From Flavobacteriaceae bacterium (lineage in GTDB: Bacteria > Bacteroidota > Bacteroidia > Flavobacteriales > Flavobacteriaceae), in NCBI GenBank assembly GCA_020854235.1, contig JADZFW010000067.1, positions 1 through 34,741 of the forward strand: DNA of 34,741 bases, written 5' to 3'. The translations under genes and the position numbers were made by a program. Positions 200 through 34,533 of this stretch are shown piece after piece (position 1 is the first letter of the stretch; each line of letters begins with the position of its first letter). The notes beneath the pieces are model-generated. The model was not told the origin of the DNA, did not search any database, and saw only the letters and a program-made list of their open reading frames with translations.

Positions 200-3109
200 T
201 CAACCCACCACATTGACAATCTTCCCTGGAACCACAATCACATTTTTGGGAGTACGTCCTTCCAAGATTTGTTGCGTTTTCTCATGGTTCAACACGATGT
301 TTTTCACTTCTTCCTGCGTTAAATCCAAAGGTAATTCCAAGGTAAATTTCATTTTACCATTGAAAGAAATCGGATAGTTTTTGGTGCTTTCTACCAAGTA
401 CTTTTCATCAAAAACAGGGAATGCAGCGTTGGAAATACTGTTTGAATGACCTAATTGCTCCCACAATTCTTCAGCAATATGAGGAGCATAAGGAGAAAGC
501 AAAACTGCCAAGGGTTCTAAAATTGCCCGTTGATTGCATTTTTGTTCGGTCAATTCATTGACGCAAATCATAAACGAACTCACCGATGTATTAAATGAAA
601 AGTTGGTGATATCTTCATCCACCTTTTTAATGGTTTTGTGTAAAGTCTTTAAAGAATCGGCAGATGCCGGTTCGTTACTCACAAAGAAACTTTCCTCCAA
701 ACCGTTGTGGTACAAGCGCCACAATTTTTTCAAAAATCCGTGTACACCTGTAATTCCAGCTGTATTCCATGGTTTGGCTTGTTCCAATGGACCTAAAAAC
801 ATTTCGTACATTCGCAAGGTATCGGCACCGTATTGGGTACAAATATCATCGGGATTGACGACGTTGTATTTGGATTTGGACATTTTTTCCACCTCGCGGT
901 TCACGAAAAATTTCCCGTTTGCTTCGGTGATAAACTCTGCATCTTTGTATTCGGGACGCCAGTTTTTTAAGGCTTCTATATCCAATTCATCGGATGCATT
1001 TACAAAGGAAACATCAGCATGAATCGGGGTAAACTGCGACCATTTTTTTTCATTGTCAGCCTTCATTCCGGCTTGAGCTCTTTCTTGAACGATAGATTCC
1101 ATTTTGTTTTTACTCACAAAAATGGTTTTTTGACGATTGTTGGTGCTTTCATAATCCCAACGATAAACAAAAGCACTCATCCCCAAAATCATCCCTTGAT
1201 TGATGAGTTTTTTGGCAAATTCATCAACTGGAACATAACCTCTGTCAAATAGAAACTTTTGCCAGAAACGGGCGTACAACAAGTGACCGGTGGCATGTTC
1301 GCTTCCGCCGATATACAAATCCACATCTTTCCAATATTGGAGTGCTTCCACCGATGCAAAACTCGTCTTATTGTGCGCATCCATATACCGGTTGAAATAC
1401 CAACTGCTACCTGCCCAACCCGGCATGGTGTTGAGTTCTAAGGGAAATATGGTTTGGTGGTTGATCAATTCATTGCTTACCACCTTGTTTTGAATCGTAT
1501 CCCAAGCCCAAGTATGGGCATTTCCCAATGGAGGTTTGCCGTCATCGGTAGGTAAATATTTTTCAACTTCAGGCAATATAATAGGTAGGTGTTCCGACGC
1601 AATCAACTGTGGCATTCCTTCTTTGTAATACACCGGAAAAGGTTCGCCCCAATAGCGTTGACGACTGAAAACTGCATCCCGCAAACGGTAATTGACTTTG
1701 GCACTTCCCGCTCCAATTTTTTCCAATTCTGCTATGATTTTATAGGTCGCTTCTTTATAGTCCAAACCATTTAAAAAGTCGGAATTTTGAAGTTTGAAGC
1801 CGCCTTTATCCGTAAAAGCCGTTTCCGAAATATCCTGATCAAAAATATTTTTAATGTCAGACATTCCTACTTGTCCTTTGAAAAAATTGGCGAATGCATA
1901 ATCTCTGTCATCACCTGCCGGAACAGCCATAACGGCTCCGGTACCATAGCCAGCCAACACGTAATCCCCAATCCAGATAGGAATTTGTTCACCGGTAAAC
2001 GGATGCAAGGCATAGGCGCCGGTAAACACACCTGATATCGTTTTGACATCACTCATACGATCACGCTCACTGCGTTTGGCGGTGGCTTCTATATAATTTT
2101 GAATGGCTGAGCGTTGTGCTTCTGTGGAAATTTGGGCAACCAATTCATGTTCGGGAGCCAAAGTCATAAAGGTAACGCCAAATAAGGTATCGGGTCTTGT
2201 AGTGAATACTTCAATGCTGAATGCTGAATGCTGAATTTTAAATGCAATAGAAGCACCTACTGATTTTCCAATCCAATTGCGTTGCATTTCTTTCAAATTG
2301 TCGGTCCAATCCAAACCATCCAATCCCTGTAACAAACGCTCCGAATAAGCCGAAATGCGCATAGACCATTGTTTCATTTTCTTGCGAACCACGGGATGTC
2401 CACCTCTTTCTGAAACCCCATTGACTACTTCGTCATTGGCTAGTACAGTTCCTAAGACCGGACACCAATTGACTTCCGTATCCGACAGATAAGTCAAGCG
2501 ATATTTGAGCAATACTTCTTGCTTTTCTACGTCGGAATAAGCACCCCATTCGGAAGCAGAAAATACCGGTGTATCTTCGTCGCAAACGGCGTTGATTCGG
2601 GTATTTCCTTCTTGAGTAAACACTTCGATTAATTCGGCGATAGGTCTAGCTTGATCGGAATCTTTGCAGTAATAAGATTCAAATAATTGGATAAAAATCC
2701 ATTGGGTATGCTTGTAATAATCCGAATCGGAAGTGCGTACTTCTCTACTCCAATCAAAAGAGAAACCCATTTGATCCAATTGACGACGGTAAGTAGTAAT
2801 ATTGGCTTCGGTAGTTTTGGCAGGATGCTGACCGGTTTGAATCGCATATTGTTCGGCGGGTAAACCGAAAGAATCGTATCCCATAGGATGCAACACGTTG
2901 TATCCTTTGTGACGCATAAAGCGACTGTAAATATCTGAAGCGATGTATCCCAATGGATGGCCTACGTGTAAACCCGCTCCCGACGGATAGGGAAACATAT
3001 CCAATACATAAAATTTGGGTTTATCAGCATGGTTTTCAGCTTTGAATGTTTGGTGCTCCGACCAATACTTTTGCCATTTGGCTTCAATTTCATTAAAATG
3101 ATATTTCAT
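200..3109 (-). CDS. leuS: Leucyl-tRNA synthetase
   Basis: This cytoplasmic class I synthetase charges tRNA-Leu with leucine, using ATP. The 969 residues carry the HIGH-type motif HVGH at residues 48-51, the KMSKS signature at 742-746, and an inserted CP1 editing domain recognisable by TTRPDTLFGVTF near residue 305 and GTGAVMAVPAGDDRDYAFA further on. It is about 100 residues longer than E. coli LeuS; part of the extra length is an insertion just before KMSKS (roughly residues 650-730), which I recall as typical of Bacteroidota LeuS. The ATG start gives the usual MKYHFNEIEAKWQ N-terminus. It is transcribed divergently from pyrH and ends at a strong hairpin. One oddity is a 7-nt direct tandem repeat inside the reading frame, just before the editing domain, described separately. 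Confidence 0.97.
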   Translation of the reverse strand: MKYHFNEIEAKWQKYWSEHQTFKAENHADKPKFYVLDMFPYPSGAGLHVGHPLGYIASDIYSRFMRHKGYNVLHPMGYDSFGLPAEQYAIQTGQHPAKTTEANITTYRRQLDQMGFSFDWSREVRTSDSDYYKHTQWIFIQLFESYYCKDSDQARPIAELIEVFTQEGNTRINAVCDEDTPVFSASEWGAYSDVEKQEVLLKYRLTYLSDTEVNWCPVLGTVLANDEVVNGVSERGGHPVVRKKMKQWSMRISAYSERLLQGLDGLDWTDNLKEMQRNWIGKSVGASIAFKIQHSAFSIEVFTTRPDTLFGVTFMTLAPEHELVAQISTEAQRSAIQNYIEATAKRSERDRMSDVKTISGVFTGAYALHPFTGEQIPIWIGDYVLAGYGTGAVMAVPAGDDRDYAFANFFKGQVGMSDIKNIFDQDISETAFTDKGGFKLQNSDFLNGLDYKEATYKIIAELEKIGAGSAKVNYRLRDAVFSRQRYWGEPFPVYYKEGMPQLIASEHLPIILPEVEKYLPTDDGKPPLGNAHTWAWDTIQNKVVSNELINHQTIFPLELNTMPGWAGSSWYFNRYMDAHNKTSFASVEALQYWKDVDLYIGGSEHATGHLLYARFWQKFLFDRGYVPVDEFAKKLINQGMILGMSAFVYRWDYESTNNRQKTIFVSKNKMESIVQERAQAGMKADNEKKWSQFTPIHADVSFVNASDELDIEALKNWRPEYKDAEFITEANGKFFVNREVEKMSKSKYNVVNPDDICTQYGADTLRMYEMFLGPLEQAKPWNTAGITGVHGFLKKLWRLYHNGLEESFFVSNEPASADSLKTLHKTIKKVDEDITNFSFNTSVSSFMICVNELTEQKCNQRAILEPLAVLLSPYAPHIAEELWEQLGHSNSISNAAFPVFDEKYLVESTKNYPISFNGKMKFTLELPLDLTQEEVKNIVLNHEKTQQILEGRTPKNVIVVPGKIVNVVG
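2215..2235 (-). repeat. Three TGCTGAA heptamers inside leuS
   Basis: Three perfect tandem copies of TGCTGAA (TTCAGCA on the coding strand) total 21 nt and so keep the reading frame. They encode the stretch IQHSAFSI just before EVFTTRPDT of the editing domain. The heptamer structure resembles the intergenic AAACTTT repeats elsewhere in the window, but here it sits within an essential gene. Confidence 0.85.
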
Positions 3110-3293
3110 CAGGTATAGATTCGATGTTTTAATTTCTTGGATTGTTACTTAAATGTTGACCCGTTGTTAATTGGTTGTTTCGATTATTCATTAGCTGAGA
3201 ATATATTTTTATATCACCTATCGAAAAAATCAAAATGAGTCGGCAAATTTACAAATTAGACCCTAGTATTCTTTTAAATTGCCGTTTTTTTAA

Positions 3294-3301
3294 TAATTTT
3301 G
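3294..3301 (+). promoter_or_regulatory. Candidate -7 box for pyrH-frr
   Basis: TAATTTTG fits the Bacteroidota -7 consensus TAnnTTTG and lies 16 bp before the pyrH ATG. No well-spaced -33 TTTG is visible (a TTG lies only about 12 bp upstream), so this is tentative. The remaining divergent leuS/pyrH spacer (3110-3317) is AT-rich, and I see no other feature in it. Confidence 0.35.
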
Positions 3302-3317
3302 CCCAAATTAAATTAAA

Positions 3318-4025
3318 ATGCATTACAAACGAGTTTTACTGAAGTTAAGTGGAGAGGCTTTGATGGGCGAACGTACGCATGGGATTGATCCCAAACGGCT
3401 GTCGATCTATGCAGAGGAAATCAAGCAAGTGGTTGAAAAGGGAGTAGAGGTGGCCATTGTTATCGGAGGCGGAAATATATTCAGAGGTGTAGCAGGAGCT
3501 AGCAATGGATTGGATCGCGTACAGGGAGATTATATGGGTATGTTGGCCACTTCCATCAACGGATTGGCTTTGCAAAGTGCCTTGGAAAGTACCGGAATTC
3601 CCACTCGATTACAGTCAGCTATCAAAATGGAGCAAGTTGCCGAACCTTTTATCAAGAGAAGAGCGGTGAGACATTTGGAAAAAGGTAGAGTTGTTATTTT
3701 TACAGGTGGAACCGGTAATCCGTTCTTCACAACCGATACTGCAGCAGTATTGAGAGCTGCTGAAATCAATGCCGATGTGATTTTGAAAGGCACACGTGTA
3801 GATGGTATTTACACAGCAGATCCTGAAAAATTTAAGGATGCCGTCAAATTCAACAATATTTCATATAAAGAGGTGATGGATAAAGGTTTGAAAGTAATGG
3901 ATATGACCGCTTTTACCTTGAGTGAAGAAAATAAATTGCCCATTATTGTATTTGATATGAATACTCCGGGAAATTTGATCAAACTCATCATGGGTGAAGA
4001 TATTGGAACTTTAGTAGAAAATTAA
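3318..4025 (+). CDS. pyrH: UMP kinase
   Basis: This cytoplasmic enzyme phosphorylates UMP to UDP with ATP in pyrimidine nucleotide synthesis. It belongs to the amino-acid-kinase fold and is unrelated to eukaryotic UMP/CMP kinases. The 235 residues have the family's usual length and carry [14 protein letters not shown] at the N-terminus, the glycine-rich GGGNIFRG at residues 50-57, the [15 protein letters not shown] segment in the middle, and [13 protein letters not shown]. The ATG gives the canonical [13 protein letters not shown] start. It lies 70 bp upstream of frr, a pairing common across bacteria, so co-transcription is likely. An AAACTTT repeat tract separates the two genes. Confidence 0.97.
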
Positions 4026-4031
4026 TAGCTT

Positions 4032-4087
4032 AAACTTTAAACTTTAAACTTTAAACTTTATAACTTTAAACTTTATAACTTTAAACC
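4032..4087 (+). repeat. AAACTTT heptamer tandem repeat between pyrH and frr
   Basis: The first part holds four perfect tandem AAACTTT units. They continue as alternating AAACTTT and ATAACTTT units for about eight copies in all, filling nearly the whole gap between the pyrH stop and the frr start. The same heptamer recurs upstream of panB (25191-25223). Confidence 0.92.
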
Positions 4088-4095
4088 CATAAGAA

Positions 4096-4650
4096 ATGGA
4101 AGACGAAATTCAATTTTTGTTAGACACTTTAAAAGAACAAATGAACAAATCAATTGCGCATTTGGAACATGAATACCGTTCCATTCGGGCAGGAAAAGCC
4201 AATCCGGCTATGTTGAGTACTGTAATGGTGGACTATTATGGATCCATGACTCCATTACAGCAAATTGCCAACTTGAGTATCATGGATGCGCATACCTTAA
4301 CGGTGCAACCATGGGAACGCAATATGCTCAATGTAATTGAAAAAGCCATTCATGTTGCCAATTTAGGTTTCAATCCTACCAATAATGGAGAGATACTCAT
4401 CATCAATGTTCCGGTTTTGACAGAAGAACGCCGTCGTGAATTGGCCAAACAAGCCAAAGCCGAATCCGAGCTAGCCAAAGTAAGTTTGAGAAATGACCGC
4501 AGAGAAGCCTTACATGAATTGAAAAAATTGGATTTACCCGAAGACATTGAAAAGGATACAGAGGAACGCATTCAAAAAACAATTGATAAATATTCTAGAT
4601 TAGTTGAAGAACATTTGGCCGCCAAGGAAAAAGAAATCATGACGGTTTAA
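4096..4650 (+). CDS. frr: Ribosome recycling factor
   Basis: With EF-G, this protein splits the post-termination ribosome so its subunits can be reused. The 184 residues match the family's normal size. Recognisable segments are the HLEHEYRSIRAGKANPAML region of the helical bundle (residues ~22-40), MTPLQQIANLSI in the hinge/domain II part, and the C-terminal helix with RRELAKQAKAESELAKVSLRNDRR leading into the EDIEKDTEERIQKTIDKY segment. The ATG at 4096 gives MEDEIQFLLDTLKEQM and directly follows the heptamer repeat tract. It is second in the pyrH-frr pair and is followed by a strong terminator. Confidence 0.97.
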   Translation: MEDEIQFLLDTLKEQMNKSIAHLEHEYRSIRAGKANPAMLSTVMVDYYGSMTPLQQIANLSIMDAHTLTVQPWERNMLNVIEKAIHVANLGFNPTNNGEILIINVPVLTEERRRELAKQAKAESELAKVSLRNDRREALHELKKLDLPEDIEKDTEERIQKTIDKYSRLVEEHLAAKEKEIMTV

Positions 4651-4675
4651 TCTAGTTAAATCTCATATAAAAAGT

Positions 4676-4707
4676 AAAAAGTCGGTTGTTTCCAACCGAC
4701 TTTTTTT
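4676..4707. terminator. Bidirectional terminator between frr and the DUF805 gene
   Basis: Perfect 8-bp stem GTCGGTTG/CAACCGAC with a TTTC loop, preceded by five A and followed by seven T. It lies between the convergent frr (plus) and DUF805 (minus) genes and can serve both. Confidence 0.88.
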
Positions 4708-4723
4708 ATAATTTATTTTGAAA

Positions 4724-5089
4724 TTATGCCTTTGGATCAGGACCATATTGATTGTCTCCTTTATTTCCTTCTGTAACAAACAAAACGAGTAACCATATTC
4801 CTCCAACAAATGGAATTAATACAATTAAATACATCCATCCACTTTTTCCAATGTCATGCAATCTTCTAACTCCGACTGAAATAGATGGAATTAAAGAAAA
4901 TAATGCCACCGCAAGATATAAATATCCGTATGGTATGCCTTCCATAAAAGTTAATCCCAATAGATTATCTAAAACTGCTGCAATAATTAAAGTAACTAGA
5001 TAGATAAGAACAAACATCCAATATTCTGTTCTTCTAGCTCTGCCATTGAAGTCGGCATACTGTTTCAAAACTTTTAAGTACCAATTCAT
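4724..5089 (-). CDS. DUF805 family inner-membrane protein
   Basis: A 121-residue hydrophobic protein with the DUF805 pattern: an N-terminal WYLKVLKQYADFNGRARRTEYW segment, three to four membrane helices, the central SVGVRRLHDIGKSGWMYL motif, and a C-terminal soluble tail ending GNKGDNQYGPDPKA. The family occurs widely in bacteria (E. coli YhaH/YhaI type). Its molecular function is not established, so none is assigned. It converges on frr, sharing the 4676-4707 terminator, and lies 165 bp beyond the end of the first TonB gene, which has its own terminator. It is probably a separate transcription unit. Confidence 0.88.
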   Translation of the reverse strand: MNWYLKVLKQYADFNGRARRTEYWMFVLIYLVTLIIAAVLDNLLGLTFMEGIPYGYLYLAVALFSLIPSISVGVRRLHDIGKSGWMYLIVLIPFVGGIWLLVLFVTEGNKGDNQYGPDPKA

Positions 5090-30192: not shown

Positions 30193-30238
30193 GAAAAAAA
30201 CAGGAAAAACCCTTATGAAAATTCAGGATTTTTCCTGT
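30193..30238 (-). promoter_or_regulatory. Terminator-like hairpin with alternative fold upstream of upp
   Basis: On the minus strand a 10-bp stem, ACAGGAAAAA with TTTTTCCTGT, is followed directly by a seven-T run, an intrinsic-terminator shape about 90 nt before the upp ATG. The left arm can instead form CAGGA-AAAA-TCCTG, which would exclude the terminator. This looks like an attenuator for upp, but the stem is AU-rich and the effect is unproven. Confidence 0.4.
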
Positions 30239-30389
30239 ATTGAAATCGAAAGTAGTTATTTAATTTTATCATATCAATTAAAGCATGAACCAAACCACCA
30301 TTTTATACTAATTATTACACTATTAAACTACTAATTAATCAACTTTAAACATTTTTTTTACACATTTATTAATTTTAATTTTTTACTTT

Positions 30390-30872
30390 ATGAGAAAATT
30401 CATTGCTACGATGCCCTCAAAAACCGTTACAGATGCCCTTGTAACAGCGGTCAACAATGCTTTAACGCCCTTTGCAGCGTTTAAAATCAACTTGACCAAC
30501 GAAGAGAAACTCGGAACGCGCTCCATGGCAGAGGGACGAGAAGGCTACGCCCGATTGATCTCTAGAATTGCAACGCAATTCCCCAACTCGCTTAGCCGAG
30601 CCGATGTTCCTACCGATTTATCCAATTTATTGGATTATTATCAAAACTTGGAAGCGGTTCGTTTGGCTTATGTCCAAGGGATTGAAACCATTACGGAAAC
30701 CCAATTGGGAGCAGCCACCGACATCATGACCTTGGTAGACCGCTACGCGCAGAGTTTACAAATTTCACGTGCCAACGAAGGTGCTTTGGATGGAGCCATG
30801 CAGGAAGTGGACGACTGGAATAAACGGTTTGCAAGCAATAAAAATGAAACTCCTTCCAAACCTGAAGTTTAA
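30390..30872 (+). CDS. Hypothetical soluble helical protein beside the 21-bp array
   Basis: A 160-residue protein from ATG 30390. No signal peptide or membrane helix is seen. It looks mostly helical: KTVTDALVTAVNNALTPFAAFKINL, EEKLGTRSMAEGREGYARLISRIATQFP, NLLDYYQNLEAVRLAYVQGIETITETQLGAATDIMTLVDRYAQSLQISRANEGALDGAMQEVDDWNKRF, then a polar tail. I do not recognise a domain; my memory is of similar unnamed proteins in other Flavobacteriia. The sequence is somewhat richer in G and C than the surrounding intergenic DNA. It has its own terminator and is followed by the 21-bp-period repeat and then the CRISPR-like relic. The start is not supported by a clear ribosome-binding site, as is usual in this phylum. 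Confidence 0.75.
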   Translation: MRKFIATMPSKTVTDALVTAVNNALTPFAAFKINLTNEEKLGTRSMAEGREGYARLISRIATQFPNSLSRADVPTDLSNLLDYYQNLEAVRLAYVQGIETITETQLGAATDIMTLVDRYAQSLQISRANEGALDGAMQEVDDWNKRFASNKNETPSKPEV

Positions 30873-30917: not shown

Positions 30918-30936
30918 ATTTTGCTATAATTTTAAA

Positions 30937-31200
30937 TAGGTTGACCTATCCTTATGATAGGTAGACCTACGGATTGGATAGGTCGACCTATGGATTTGGT
31001 AGGTTGACCTATCTTATTACTAGGTAGACCTATGGATTTGGTAGGTTGACCTACAGATTTGATAGGTTGACCTTTAGATTTAGTAGGTTGACCTATCCTT
31101 ATGATAGGTAGACCTATGAATTTGGTAGGTTGACCTACGAAAAAGGTAGGTTGACCTCAATATTTACTAGGTCGACTAAATTAAAAGATAGGCGTACGTA
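30937..31200. repeat. 21-bp-period array of 13 near-palindromic TAGGTNGACCTA boxes
   Basis: Thirteen 12-bp boxes begin at 30937, 30958, 30979, 31000, 31021, 31042, 31063, 31084, 31105, 31126, 31147, 31168 and 31189, exactly 21 bp apart with no slippage. Boxes 1-6 and 8-10 read TAGGTNGACCTA with N=T, A or C; boxes 7 and 11 differ in the last base; box 12 is TAGGTCGACTAA and box 13 TAGGCGTACGTA, so the right end decays. The perfect palindrome would be TAGGTCGACCTA (box 3). Spacers of 9 bp vary but often resemble TGGATTTGG; TCCTTATGA occurs twice, 147 bp (seven units) apart, and there creates a 7-bp hairpin. Two helical turns per unit put every box on the same face of the DNA, as at multi-site protein-binding arrays. 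Function unknown. Confidence 0.93.
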
Positions 31201-31292
31201 GAAAGTGTGCATGGAGGTATAAAAAATCTTCAATTTCAAGCAAGTAACTGTATCTTAGTTCAAGCTAAAAACCCATACACTCTTTGACATAG

Positions 31293-31392
31293 TTTTAAAA
31301 GACTTTTTTAATTTCTACTATTGTAGATCTTAATAAGGTTCATGTAGAAGAAACCTATTTAAAAGACTTTTTTAATTTTTCAAGGCTACATT
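31293..31392 (+). CRISPR. Relic one-spacer CRISPR array with type V-A (Cas12a) repeat
   Basis: A 36-nt repeat at 31293-31328 ends in AATTTCTACTATTGTAGAT, the conserved 19-nt Cas12a crRNA handle (stem TCTAC/GTAGA, loop TATT; FnCas12a has G in place of one A). A 28-nt spacer follows (31329-31356), then a second repeat at 31357-31392 that matches the first for 21 nt (TTTAAAAGACTTTTTTAATT and one further T) but has lost the hairpin. Repeat and spacer lengths both fit type V-A. Handle and spacer order imply transcription on plus, with the leader probably in 31201-31292. No cas gene is in the window. A degenerate last repeat is normal at the leader-distal end, so this may be the remnant of a longer array or an orphan mini-array. 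The region 31201-31292 shows no other feature. Confidence 0.7.
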
Positions 31393-31430: not shown

Positions 31431-31465
31431 AAAAAAAGAGCAATACGCTTCAGTATTGCTCTTTT
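31431..31465 (-). terminator. Terminator of the tRNA-Asn gene
   Basis: Perfect stem GAGCAATAC/GTATTGCTC extended by four A-T pairs, 6-nt loop, followed on the minus strand by a T run. It lies immediately downstream of the tRNA. Confidence 0.9.
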
Positions 31466-31466
31466 G

Positions 31467-31540
31467 CTCCCCCTCTTGGACTTGAACCAAGGACCCTCTG
31501 ATTAACAGTCAGATGCTCTAACCGACTGAGCTAAGGAGGA
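31467..31540 (-). tRNA. tRNA-Asn (GUU anticodon)
   Basis: The minus strand folds as a 74-nt cloverleaf: acceptor arms TCCTCCT and AGGGGGA (with one G-U), D arm with AGCTCAGTCGGTTAGAGC, anticodon stem TCTGA/TCAGA with loop CTGTTAA (anticodon GTT, Asn), and T arm CTTGG-TTCAAGT-CCAAG. The discriminator is G73 and CCA is not encoded. A strong terminator follows. It lies divergently from lysA and next to the CRISPR-like relic; tRNA genes are frequent integration sites, but I see no att duplication here. Confidence 0.95.
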
Positions 31541-31649: not shown

Positions 31650-32855
31650 ATGAACCAACACCTTTTAGTATCTATTGCACAAGAACATGGTCTTCCGGTC
31701 TATGTTTATGACGCTTCCAAAATCACATCTCAATACCAACGTTTGACCCAAGCTTTCAGTGCTGTTAAAAAGCTGAAAATCAATTATGCGGTTAAGGCTT
31801 TGAACAATATCAATGTTTTGAAGATTTTTAAAAAGTTGGGTTCGGGTTTGGATACAGTTTCCATTCAAGAGGTGTTGCTGGGTCTTGAAGCCGGATTTGA
31901 TCCACACGAAATCATTTATACACCCAACGGGGTTTCCATGGAAGAAATCGAACAAGTAGCTGCCATGGGTGTGCAAATCAACATCGACAATCTTTCCATT
32001 TTGGAACAATTTGGTCAAAAACACCCCAATATTCCGGTTTGTATCCGCATCAATCCACATGTGATGGCAGGTGGTAATTCCAAAATATCCGTAGGTCATA
32101 TTGATTCCAAATTTGGAATTTCCATACATCAGACACCGCATATCAAACGCATTGTAACGTTGACCAAAATGCACATCAACGGCATTCATATGCATACCGG
32201 ATCGGACATCTTGGATGTGGATACGTTTTTAAGAGCCACTGAAATACTATTGGATGTGGTTAAAGAATTTGATACCATTGAATTTGTAGATTTTGGAAGC
32301 GGTTTCAAAGTTCCTTATAAAGAAGGCGATATCGCTACCGATGTAGAAGAATTGGGCGAAAAACTGAGTGCTCGATTCAATGATTTTTGTGTGGAGTATG
32401 GAAAAGATTTATGTCTCATGTTTGAACCCGGTAAATTTTTAGTGAGTGCTGCGGGTAGCTTTTTGACTAAAGTCAATGTCATCAAGCAAACCACTTCGAC
32501 TGTTTTTGCCGGAGTGGACAGTGGTTTCAACCATTTGATCAGACCTATGTTTTACGATTCTTACCACCATATTGTCAACATTTCAAATCCCGAAGGAAAA
32601 GAAAGGTATTACAGTGTTGTGGGGTATATTTGCGAAACCGATACCTTTGCCAGCAACCGCAAAATCAATGAAATCAGAGAGAATGATATTTTGTGTTTCA
32701 ACAATGCCGGAGCTTACAGTTATACTATGGCTTCCAATTACAATTCCCGTTACCGTCCGGCAGAAGTGTTGGTAAAAGATGGAAAGGCATTTCTGATTCG
32801 GGAACGAGAAACCTTTGAAGATTTGATTCGCAACCAAGTTATTTTAGACATTTAA
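31650..32855 (+). CDS. lysA: Diaminopimelate decarboxylase
   Basis: LysA decarboxylates meso-diaminopimelate to L-lysine with PLP, the last step of the DAP pathway. The 401 residues show the alanine-racemase-like PLP barrel with NYAVKALNN (Lys49 should form the Schiff base), SGLDTVSIQEVLLGLEAGFD, HMHTGSDI, the phosphate-binding VDFGSGFKVPYKEGD region, FEPGKFLVSAAGSFLTKV, and the active-site CETDTFA in the C-terminal beta domain, with FNNAGAYSYTMASNYNSR near the end. It is followed 21 bp later by asd, making a compact lysine/DAP operon. The order (lysA before asd) is sensible but not chronological for the pathway. Confidence 0.96.
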   Translation: MNQHLLVSIAQEHGLPVYVYDASKITSQYQRLTQAFSAVKKLKINYAVKALNNINVLKIFKKLGSGLDTVSIQEVLLGLEAGFDPHEIIYTPNGVSMEEIEQVAAMGVQINIDNLSILEQFGQKHPNIPVCIRINPHVMAGGNSKISVGHIDSKFGISIHQTPHIKRIVTLTKMHINGIHMHTGSDILDVDTFLRATEILLDVVKEFDTIEFVDFGSGFKVPYKEGDIATDVEELGEKLSARFNDFCVEYGKDLCLMFEPGKFLVSAAGSFLTKVNVIKQTTSTVFAGVDSGFNHLIRPMFYDSYHHIVNISNPEGKERYYSVVGYICETDTFASNRKINEIRENDILCFNNAGAYSYTMASNYNSRYRPAEVLVKDGKAFLIRERETFEDLIRNQVILDI

Positions 32856-34032: not shown

Positions 34033-34161
34033 CTATCTTAACTTAAGATGTAAATCATTTGCTATATTTACAACTGAATAATAAGTTGCTTGTAATTATT
34101 TATTTTTTGGAATTTGTTTTAAATACAATTGGTTTTTTGTGAAATCAAATTGAAAATAGCT

Positions 34162-34533
34162 ATGGAAAATTTTAAAACTTTTGAAGATTTAGAATGCTGG
34201 AAAGAGGCAAGGAAACTTCGCATTCATGTAAAAATTAATATACTTTCTAAATTTCCTGAAAATGAAAAGTTTGATCTTACCTTACAACTCAGTAGGTCGT
34301 CTCGATCTATAGGAAATAATATTTCAGAGGGTTTTGGAAGATTTCACTATCAGGAAAATATTCAATTTTGCAGGATAGCCAGAGGGTCATTAACCGAAAC
34401 GCTAGATCATTGTATAATCGCATTTGATGAGTCCTATATTTCACAAGATGAACTACTTGAAGTTCGAAAAATATACAATAAAACACTGTTGCTTTTGAAT
34501 GGTTATATCAAATATCTCAATACTAAAAAGTAA
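34162..34533 (+). CDS. Four-helix-bundle protein (23S rRNA intervening-sequence family)
   Basis: A 123-residue protein from ATG 34162 (a longer frame begins at TTG 34129 and adds 11 unconserved residues). It has the family pattern: MENFKTFEDLECWKEARKLR, then FPENEKFDLTLQLSRSSRSIGNNISEGFGR, then IARGSLTETLDHCIIAFDESYISQDEL, and a final helix ending IKYLNTKK. Relatives include proteins encoded within intervening sequences of 23S rRNA genes and the Avd accessory protein of diversity-generating retroelements; they form four-helix bundles and probably bind nucleic acid. I see no rRNA, reverse transcriptase or variable-repeat pair nearby. The gene is bracketed by inverted arrays of one octamer, which suggests it moves or is copied as a unit. 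Confidence 0.87.
   Translation: MENFKTFEDLECWKEARKLRIHVKINILSKFPENEKFDLTLQLSRSSRSIGNNISEGFGRFHYQENIQFCRIARGSLTETLDHCIIAFDESYISQDELLEVRKIYNKTLLLLNGYIKYLNTKK

Follow-up and report, generated by a model that had tools for sequence, protein, structure and literature searches.

A probable orphan remnant of a type V-A CRISPR array, with a single spacer, between housekeeping genes of a Flavobacteriaceae bacterium

Between a short protein gene and a tRNA-Asn gene of a Flavobacteriaceae bacterium lies a unit with the repeat of a type V-A CRISPR array and a single spacer, which raises the question of whether it is a working array, a leftover of one, or something that only resembles one. The window analysed, that is, the whole 34.7-kb stretch of DNA, contains the following features at and around this unit.

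30390-30872, + strand: left-hand neighbour, gene for a 160-aa protein of no assigned family, neither phage- nor defence-like
31160-31292, + strand: expected leader position; no leader or Bacteroidota-type promoter recognised
31293-31328, + strand: complete 36-nt type V-A direct repeat, TTTTAAAAGACTTTTTTAATTTCTACTATTGTAGAT, by direct reading and by 33/36 identity to two Bacteroidota repeats
31310-31328, + strand: exact V-A handle, AATTTCTACTATTGTAGAT, the 3' end of the complete repeat
31329-31356, + strand: 28-nt spacer, CTTAATAAGGTTCATGTAGAAGAAACCT, without target match
31357-31392, + strand: second, terminal repeat, ATTTAAAAGACTTTTTTAATTTTTCAAGGCTACATT, with its 5' half exact (31358-31378) and its 3' half replaced
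31434-31465, no strand assigned: perfect 13-bp inverted repeat with a 6-nt loop, probable tRNA-Asn terminator as judged from sequence
31466-31540, - strand: tRNA-Asn (GTT), convergent right-hand neighbour
31650-32855, + strand: PLP-dependent decarboxylase (diaminopimelate decarboxylase / lysA type), housekeeping neighbour

The earlier note had described a 36-nt repeat, a 28-nt spacer and a partly matching second repeat at these coordinates, with a V-A repeat 3' end; direct reading agrees on each point, and the handle is exact. The complete repeat contains the conserved V-A 3' hairpin AATTTCTACT-N-TTGTAGAT, which is predicted to be intact when the first repeat is folded in isolation. Both copies have 21 consecutive exact bases in common (31294-31314 and 31358-31378) and start 64 nt apart, which equals 36 + 28; they are identical at 23 of 36 positions overall and at 2 of the last 14. 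With one full repeat, one half repeat and a spacer inside the range of 26-32 nt, the unit is the minimal case of a V-A array of at least two repeats. A search at distances of 60-68 nt on either side, and through the rest of the window, gave no further repeat copy.

When one genome for each of 84,980 species was scanned with a degenerate version of the repeat, two records only matched, both of type V-A; the exact repeat is absent from this set. The 33/36 identity is to the repeats of Bacteroidia bacterium MS502-39 and of Prevotella RUG536. In MS502-39 (BNTV01000004.1; loci L039 and L068), an array of at least 19 repeats shares a contig with Cas2, Cas1 and Cas4, with a 1208-aa Cas12a and with a 1213-aa protein matching PDB 8d49 (E = 4e-237), so that the repeat studied here resembles that of an array beside cas12a. 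We take PDB 8d49 to be the Cas12a2 of Sulfuricurvum, and the Zn-ribbon of the 1213-aa protein agrees with this. The cas12a and cas12a2 genes of MS502-39 stand in tandem, together with cas4-cas1-cas2 and one shared array. Since Cas12a2 and Cas12a share crRNAs with the same handle (PMC9811890), the original partner of the repeat could equally have been either of them. In Prevotella RUG536, cas12a is cut off at about 130 aa and is followed directly by a single V-A repeat (locus L040, 14-511), which looks like a deletion scar.

In the second repeat the 5' half is intact and runs on into unrelated sequence, and no stem is predicted on folding; 21 exact bases followed by 2 matches in 14 show that it is not an evenly diverged copy. 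Handle-breaking changes occur in 11 of 14 native V-A terminal repeats, where they prevent an extra crRNA from the array end (PMC6610086). Like these, the second repeat keeps its 5' half and loses the handle; it differs from them in that the whole 14-nt 3' end is replaced, which goes beyond a few substitutions. Genome G061 of the same family carries, on contig C137 (locus L132, 48-218 and about 392-4870), a Cas12a2-like effector and a three-repeat mini-array (CTCTAATAGACCTATTAAATTTCTACTTTTGTAGAT) whose terminal repeat is identical over the first 30 of 36 nt and has its 3' handle arm replaced. That terminal repeat diverts into a self-complementary hairpin, AGACCTATTAAA...TTTAATAGGTCT. By this analogy, the second repeat studied here fits a normal V-A terminal repeat and need not reflect decay, since V-A arrays normally end in a broken repeat. 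The match ends abruptly, so that a deletion with its edge near 31378/31379 could also account for it. The earlier note had called the array genuine but decayed: repeat, spacer and period bear out the first word, and the second repeat does not establish the second. A handle-less second repeat should thus be read first as a normal V-A terminal repeat and only then as decay.

The surroundings are those of a housekeeping region, with leuS, pyrH, frr, sprA, panB, upp, lysA and asd assigned by reading; comparison of six window proteins with phage families gave no hint of a prophage, and five were compared with defence families without a match. Genus member G003 shares upp, but there the next gene is another one, of cysteine synthase type; DNA searches of the three incomplete genus genomes did not find lysA, and in 12 family genomes no tRNA gene was found inside the 4.2-kb lysA locus. 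Upstream of the array, the leader region shares only the 11-mer TCTTTGACATA with the leader of MS502-39, and 31 of 200 shuffles score as well; there is no TTG/TAnnTTTG promoter, and promoter and terminator scans gave nothing above shuffles. The inverted repeat at 31434-31465, which the terminator consensus scan did not list, is by its sequence the probable terminator of the convergent tRNA-Asn gene, and could also stop a + strand transcript of the array.

Other elements were noted in the window. The stretch 30936-31176 holds at least 10 repeat units, each 21 bp long and built around the palindrome TAGGTTGACCTA; contig C23 of the host and genome G002 have similar blocks, which makes this a genus-level repeat family. 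An element of about 46 bp at 30194-30240 (caggaaaaacccttatgaaaattcaggatttttcctg, partly palindromic) recurs at 84-92% identity on several contigs of the host and its genus mates, and a gene of the 23S rRNA intervening-sequence protein family (PF05635) lies at 34129-34533, outside an rRNA operon.

No cas gene lies nearby, as had been noted for the 34.7-kb window, and the genome-wide search that had been proposed, for cas genes and further repeats, returned no match to Cas12a (TIGR04330), to a Cas12a2 query or to Cas1 in the host assembly, which is 76% complete, and no further copy of the repeat handle. The separate Cas12a2 query was made because TIGR04330 alone misses this effector, leaving the Cas12a2 of genome G774 unlisted. 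The effector searches do give matches in the positive controls G695, G774 and G061, and the Cas1 search in 9 of 14 control genomes; of the adaptation genes, the genome-wide search covered Cas1. Absence of Cas12a, Cas12a2 and Cas1 from the host genome is therefore probable, not proven or final, given the completeness of the assembly. Among the sampled family genomes a type V-A-like effector occurs in 1 of 299 (G061), and the repeat, at up to three mismatches, occurs in none of 396, nor in any of three genus members. The unit is accordingly not an ancestral conserved element, and lateral acquisition of a V-A locus by the host is likely.

We conclude, with a probability of about 0.72, that the unit is an orphan one-spacer remnant of a V-A array (of Cas12a and/or Cas12a2), lying between housekeeping genes and most likely inert in this host. 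An exact handle together with a V-A type 5' half, the 64-nt period, the failure to recognise a leader, and the lack of Cas12a, Cas12a2 and Cas1 all argue for it. A plausible history would begin with lateral acquisition of a V-A locus, followed by contraction of the array through recombination between repeats, or through a deletion with its edge near 31378/31379, the leader and the cas genes being lost alongside. By what is known of the family, rightward transcription in the presence of Cas12a or Cas12a2 would let the nuclease bind the hairpin of the handle, cleave immediately 5' of it and take up a guide that starts at 31329; having no handle, the second repeat would close the array and give no extra crRNA. 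Two points weigh against a remnant: cas genes may sit in the missing quarter of the assembly, and a perfect repeat and handle are not required of a long-dead relic; yet a target of 36 nt mutates slowly.

The alternative that survives best is a working minimal array, in which the single crRNA is processed in trans, for defence or regulation, by a Cas12a or Cas12a2 whose gene lies in the quarter of the genome missing from the assembly. The intact repeat, the hairpin predicted to be intact in isolation, the handle-broken form normal for a terminal repeat and the 76% completeness would suit it, and the mini-array of G061, with two spacers beside a Cas12a2-like effector, shows that small arrays of this sort exist in the family. 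However, no Cas12a, Cas12a2 or Cas1 is found in the assembly, very few genomes of the family have such an effector, and the array has neither adjoining cas genes nor a recognised leader. The spacer itself also speaks against function in trans, as its GTAGAAGAAA is predicted to pair with TTTCTAC of the handle. With guides of 22-24 nt the handle stem is predicted to be formed at only 3%, with 20 nt at 31% and with 28 nt at 57%; for real V-A guides the median is 97%. Such pairing would unfold the handle, which is a hint only, as Cas12a may override it. We consider a working array unlikely, and the suggestion that the unit could still yield one functional crRNA finds no support, with no nuclease found and the handle stem predicted to be 3-57% formed.

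Nor does the spacer point to a target. The alignments and PAM check suggested for it yielded no credible match in phages, plasmids, viral contigs or the host's own genome: comparison with phages and plasmids gave nothing above chance, searches of viral contigs by 19-nt halves or by PAM plus seed gave no match, and the best of the viral contigs sharing any of three spacer 16-mers agreed at 21 of 28 positions. Among the spacer matches listed, none had an intact seed beside a T-rich PAM, and no mobile element was matched in that way. One inverted match of the spacer 3' end, to 30930-30942, is probably a chance one, the DNA there being AT-rich.

An RNA anti-CRISPR (Racr) is a weaker alternative, though a serious one: a phage or mobile element would have left behind a mimic of the repeat, and this mimic would titrate Cas12a. 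Three V-A Racrs do inhibit a type V-A system (PMC10651486), and solitary V-A repeats are found on a mobile-looking stretch in the same phylum. The latter, on the minus strand of contig C15 of genome G439 (locus L053), are two lone 36-nt V-A repeats (1501-1536 and 1950-1985, 449 nt apart), one with an intact handle inside a 79-aa ORF and the other intergenic with a broken handle; they adjoin an XRE/ImmA-IrrE (M78) regulator, of a kind that mobile elements typically carry, and form a candidate pair of Racr-like solitary repeat units. The unit studied here shares with the solitary V-A units (PMC10651486) a full repeat without cas genes. It differs in that a spacer follows the repeat and a half-repeat comes after this at exactly the CRISPR period, and in its housekeeping surroundings, where the six proteins compared with phage families show no sign of a prophage; a Racr, as defined, is carried by a phage or mobile element and has no second repeat copy. 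A phage-borne Racr is therefore unlikely from the flanking genes and the spacing. The repeat studied here, moreover, was not found in 2.9 million viral contigs, and the relatives searched have no Cas12a host system, all of which leaves a Racr very unlikely.

We regard as likewise very unlikely a lone chromosomal V-A crRNA that is kept without a cas locus of its own and is used in trans for regulation or as a decoy, its Cas12a or Cas12a2 being unassembled or borne on a mobile element. Chance resemblance or an unrelated repeated element can practically be dismissed: the intergenic stretch is AT-rich (window GC 37%) and adjoins other repeats, but only about 1e-13 full repeats are expected in both strands of the assembly under Markov models built from the window, a second copy lies 64 nt away, the handle is unique in the genome, and the block matches no Rfam family and is not conserved in relatives. 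Exact handles, under Markov models of orders 1-4, are expected in both strands at 7e-5 to 5e-4; the handle occurs once in the 2.49-Mb host assembly, where the next-best match has two mismatches, and once in the window (chance 0.04 at up to three mismatches). The earlier note had named two observations that would tell against its reading, a handle recurring in many non-CRISPR contexts of the genome and a block belonging to a conserved RNA or repeat family of relatives; neither was seen, and the second idea was rejected.

The orphan remnant reading has two consequences. V-A systems would have passed through a bacterial family from which they are now nearly absent, and one-spacer traces of this sort fall below the limits of array finders. 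The array is otherwise ordinary, an orphan remnant of a known immune system. Orphan CRISPR arrays, which stand alone with no cas genes, are already known (PMC5294841), and the unit, like those surveyed there, lies away from any cas locus; it differs in being of type V-A, which is rare in the family, and in having one spacer, below the usual detection limits. With the array of MS502-39 it shares the exact handle, the 33/36 repeat and a similar repeat-spacer period (62-68 nt there), whereas that array has at least 19 repeats, a leader and adjoining cas2, cas1, cas4, cas12a2 and cas12a, and here there is one spacer and no cas gene. The comparable wreck is that of Prevotella RUG536, with its cut cas12a and its lone repeat.
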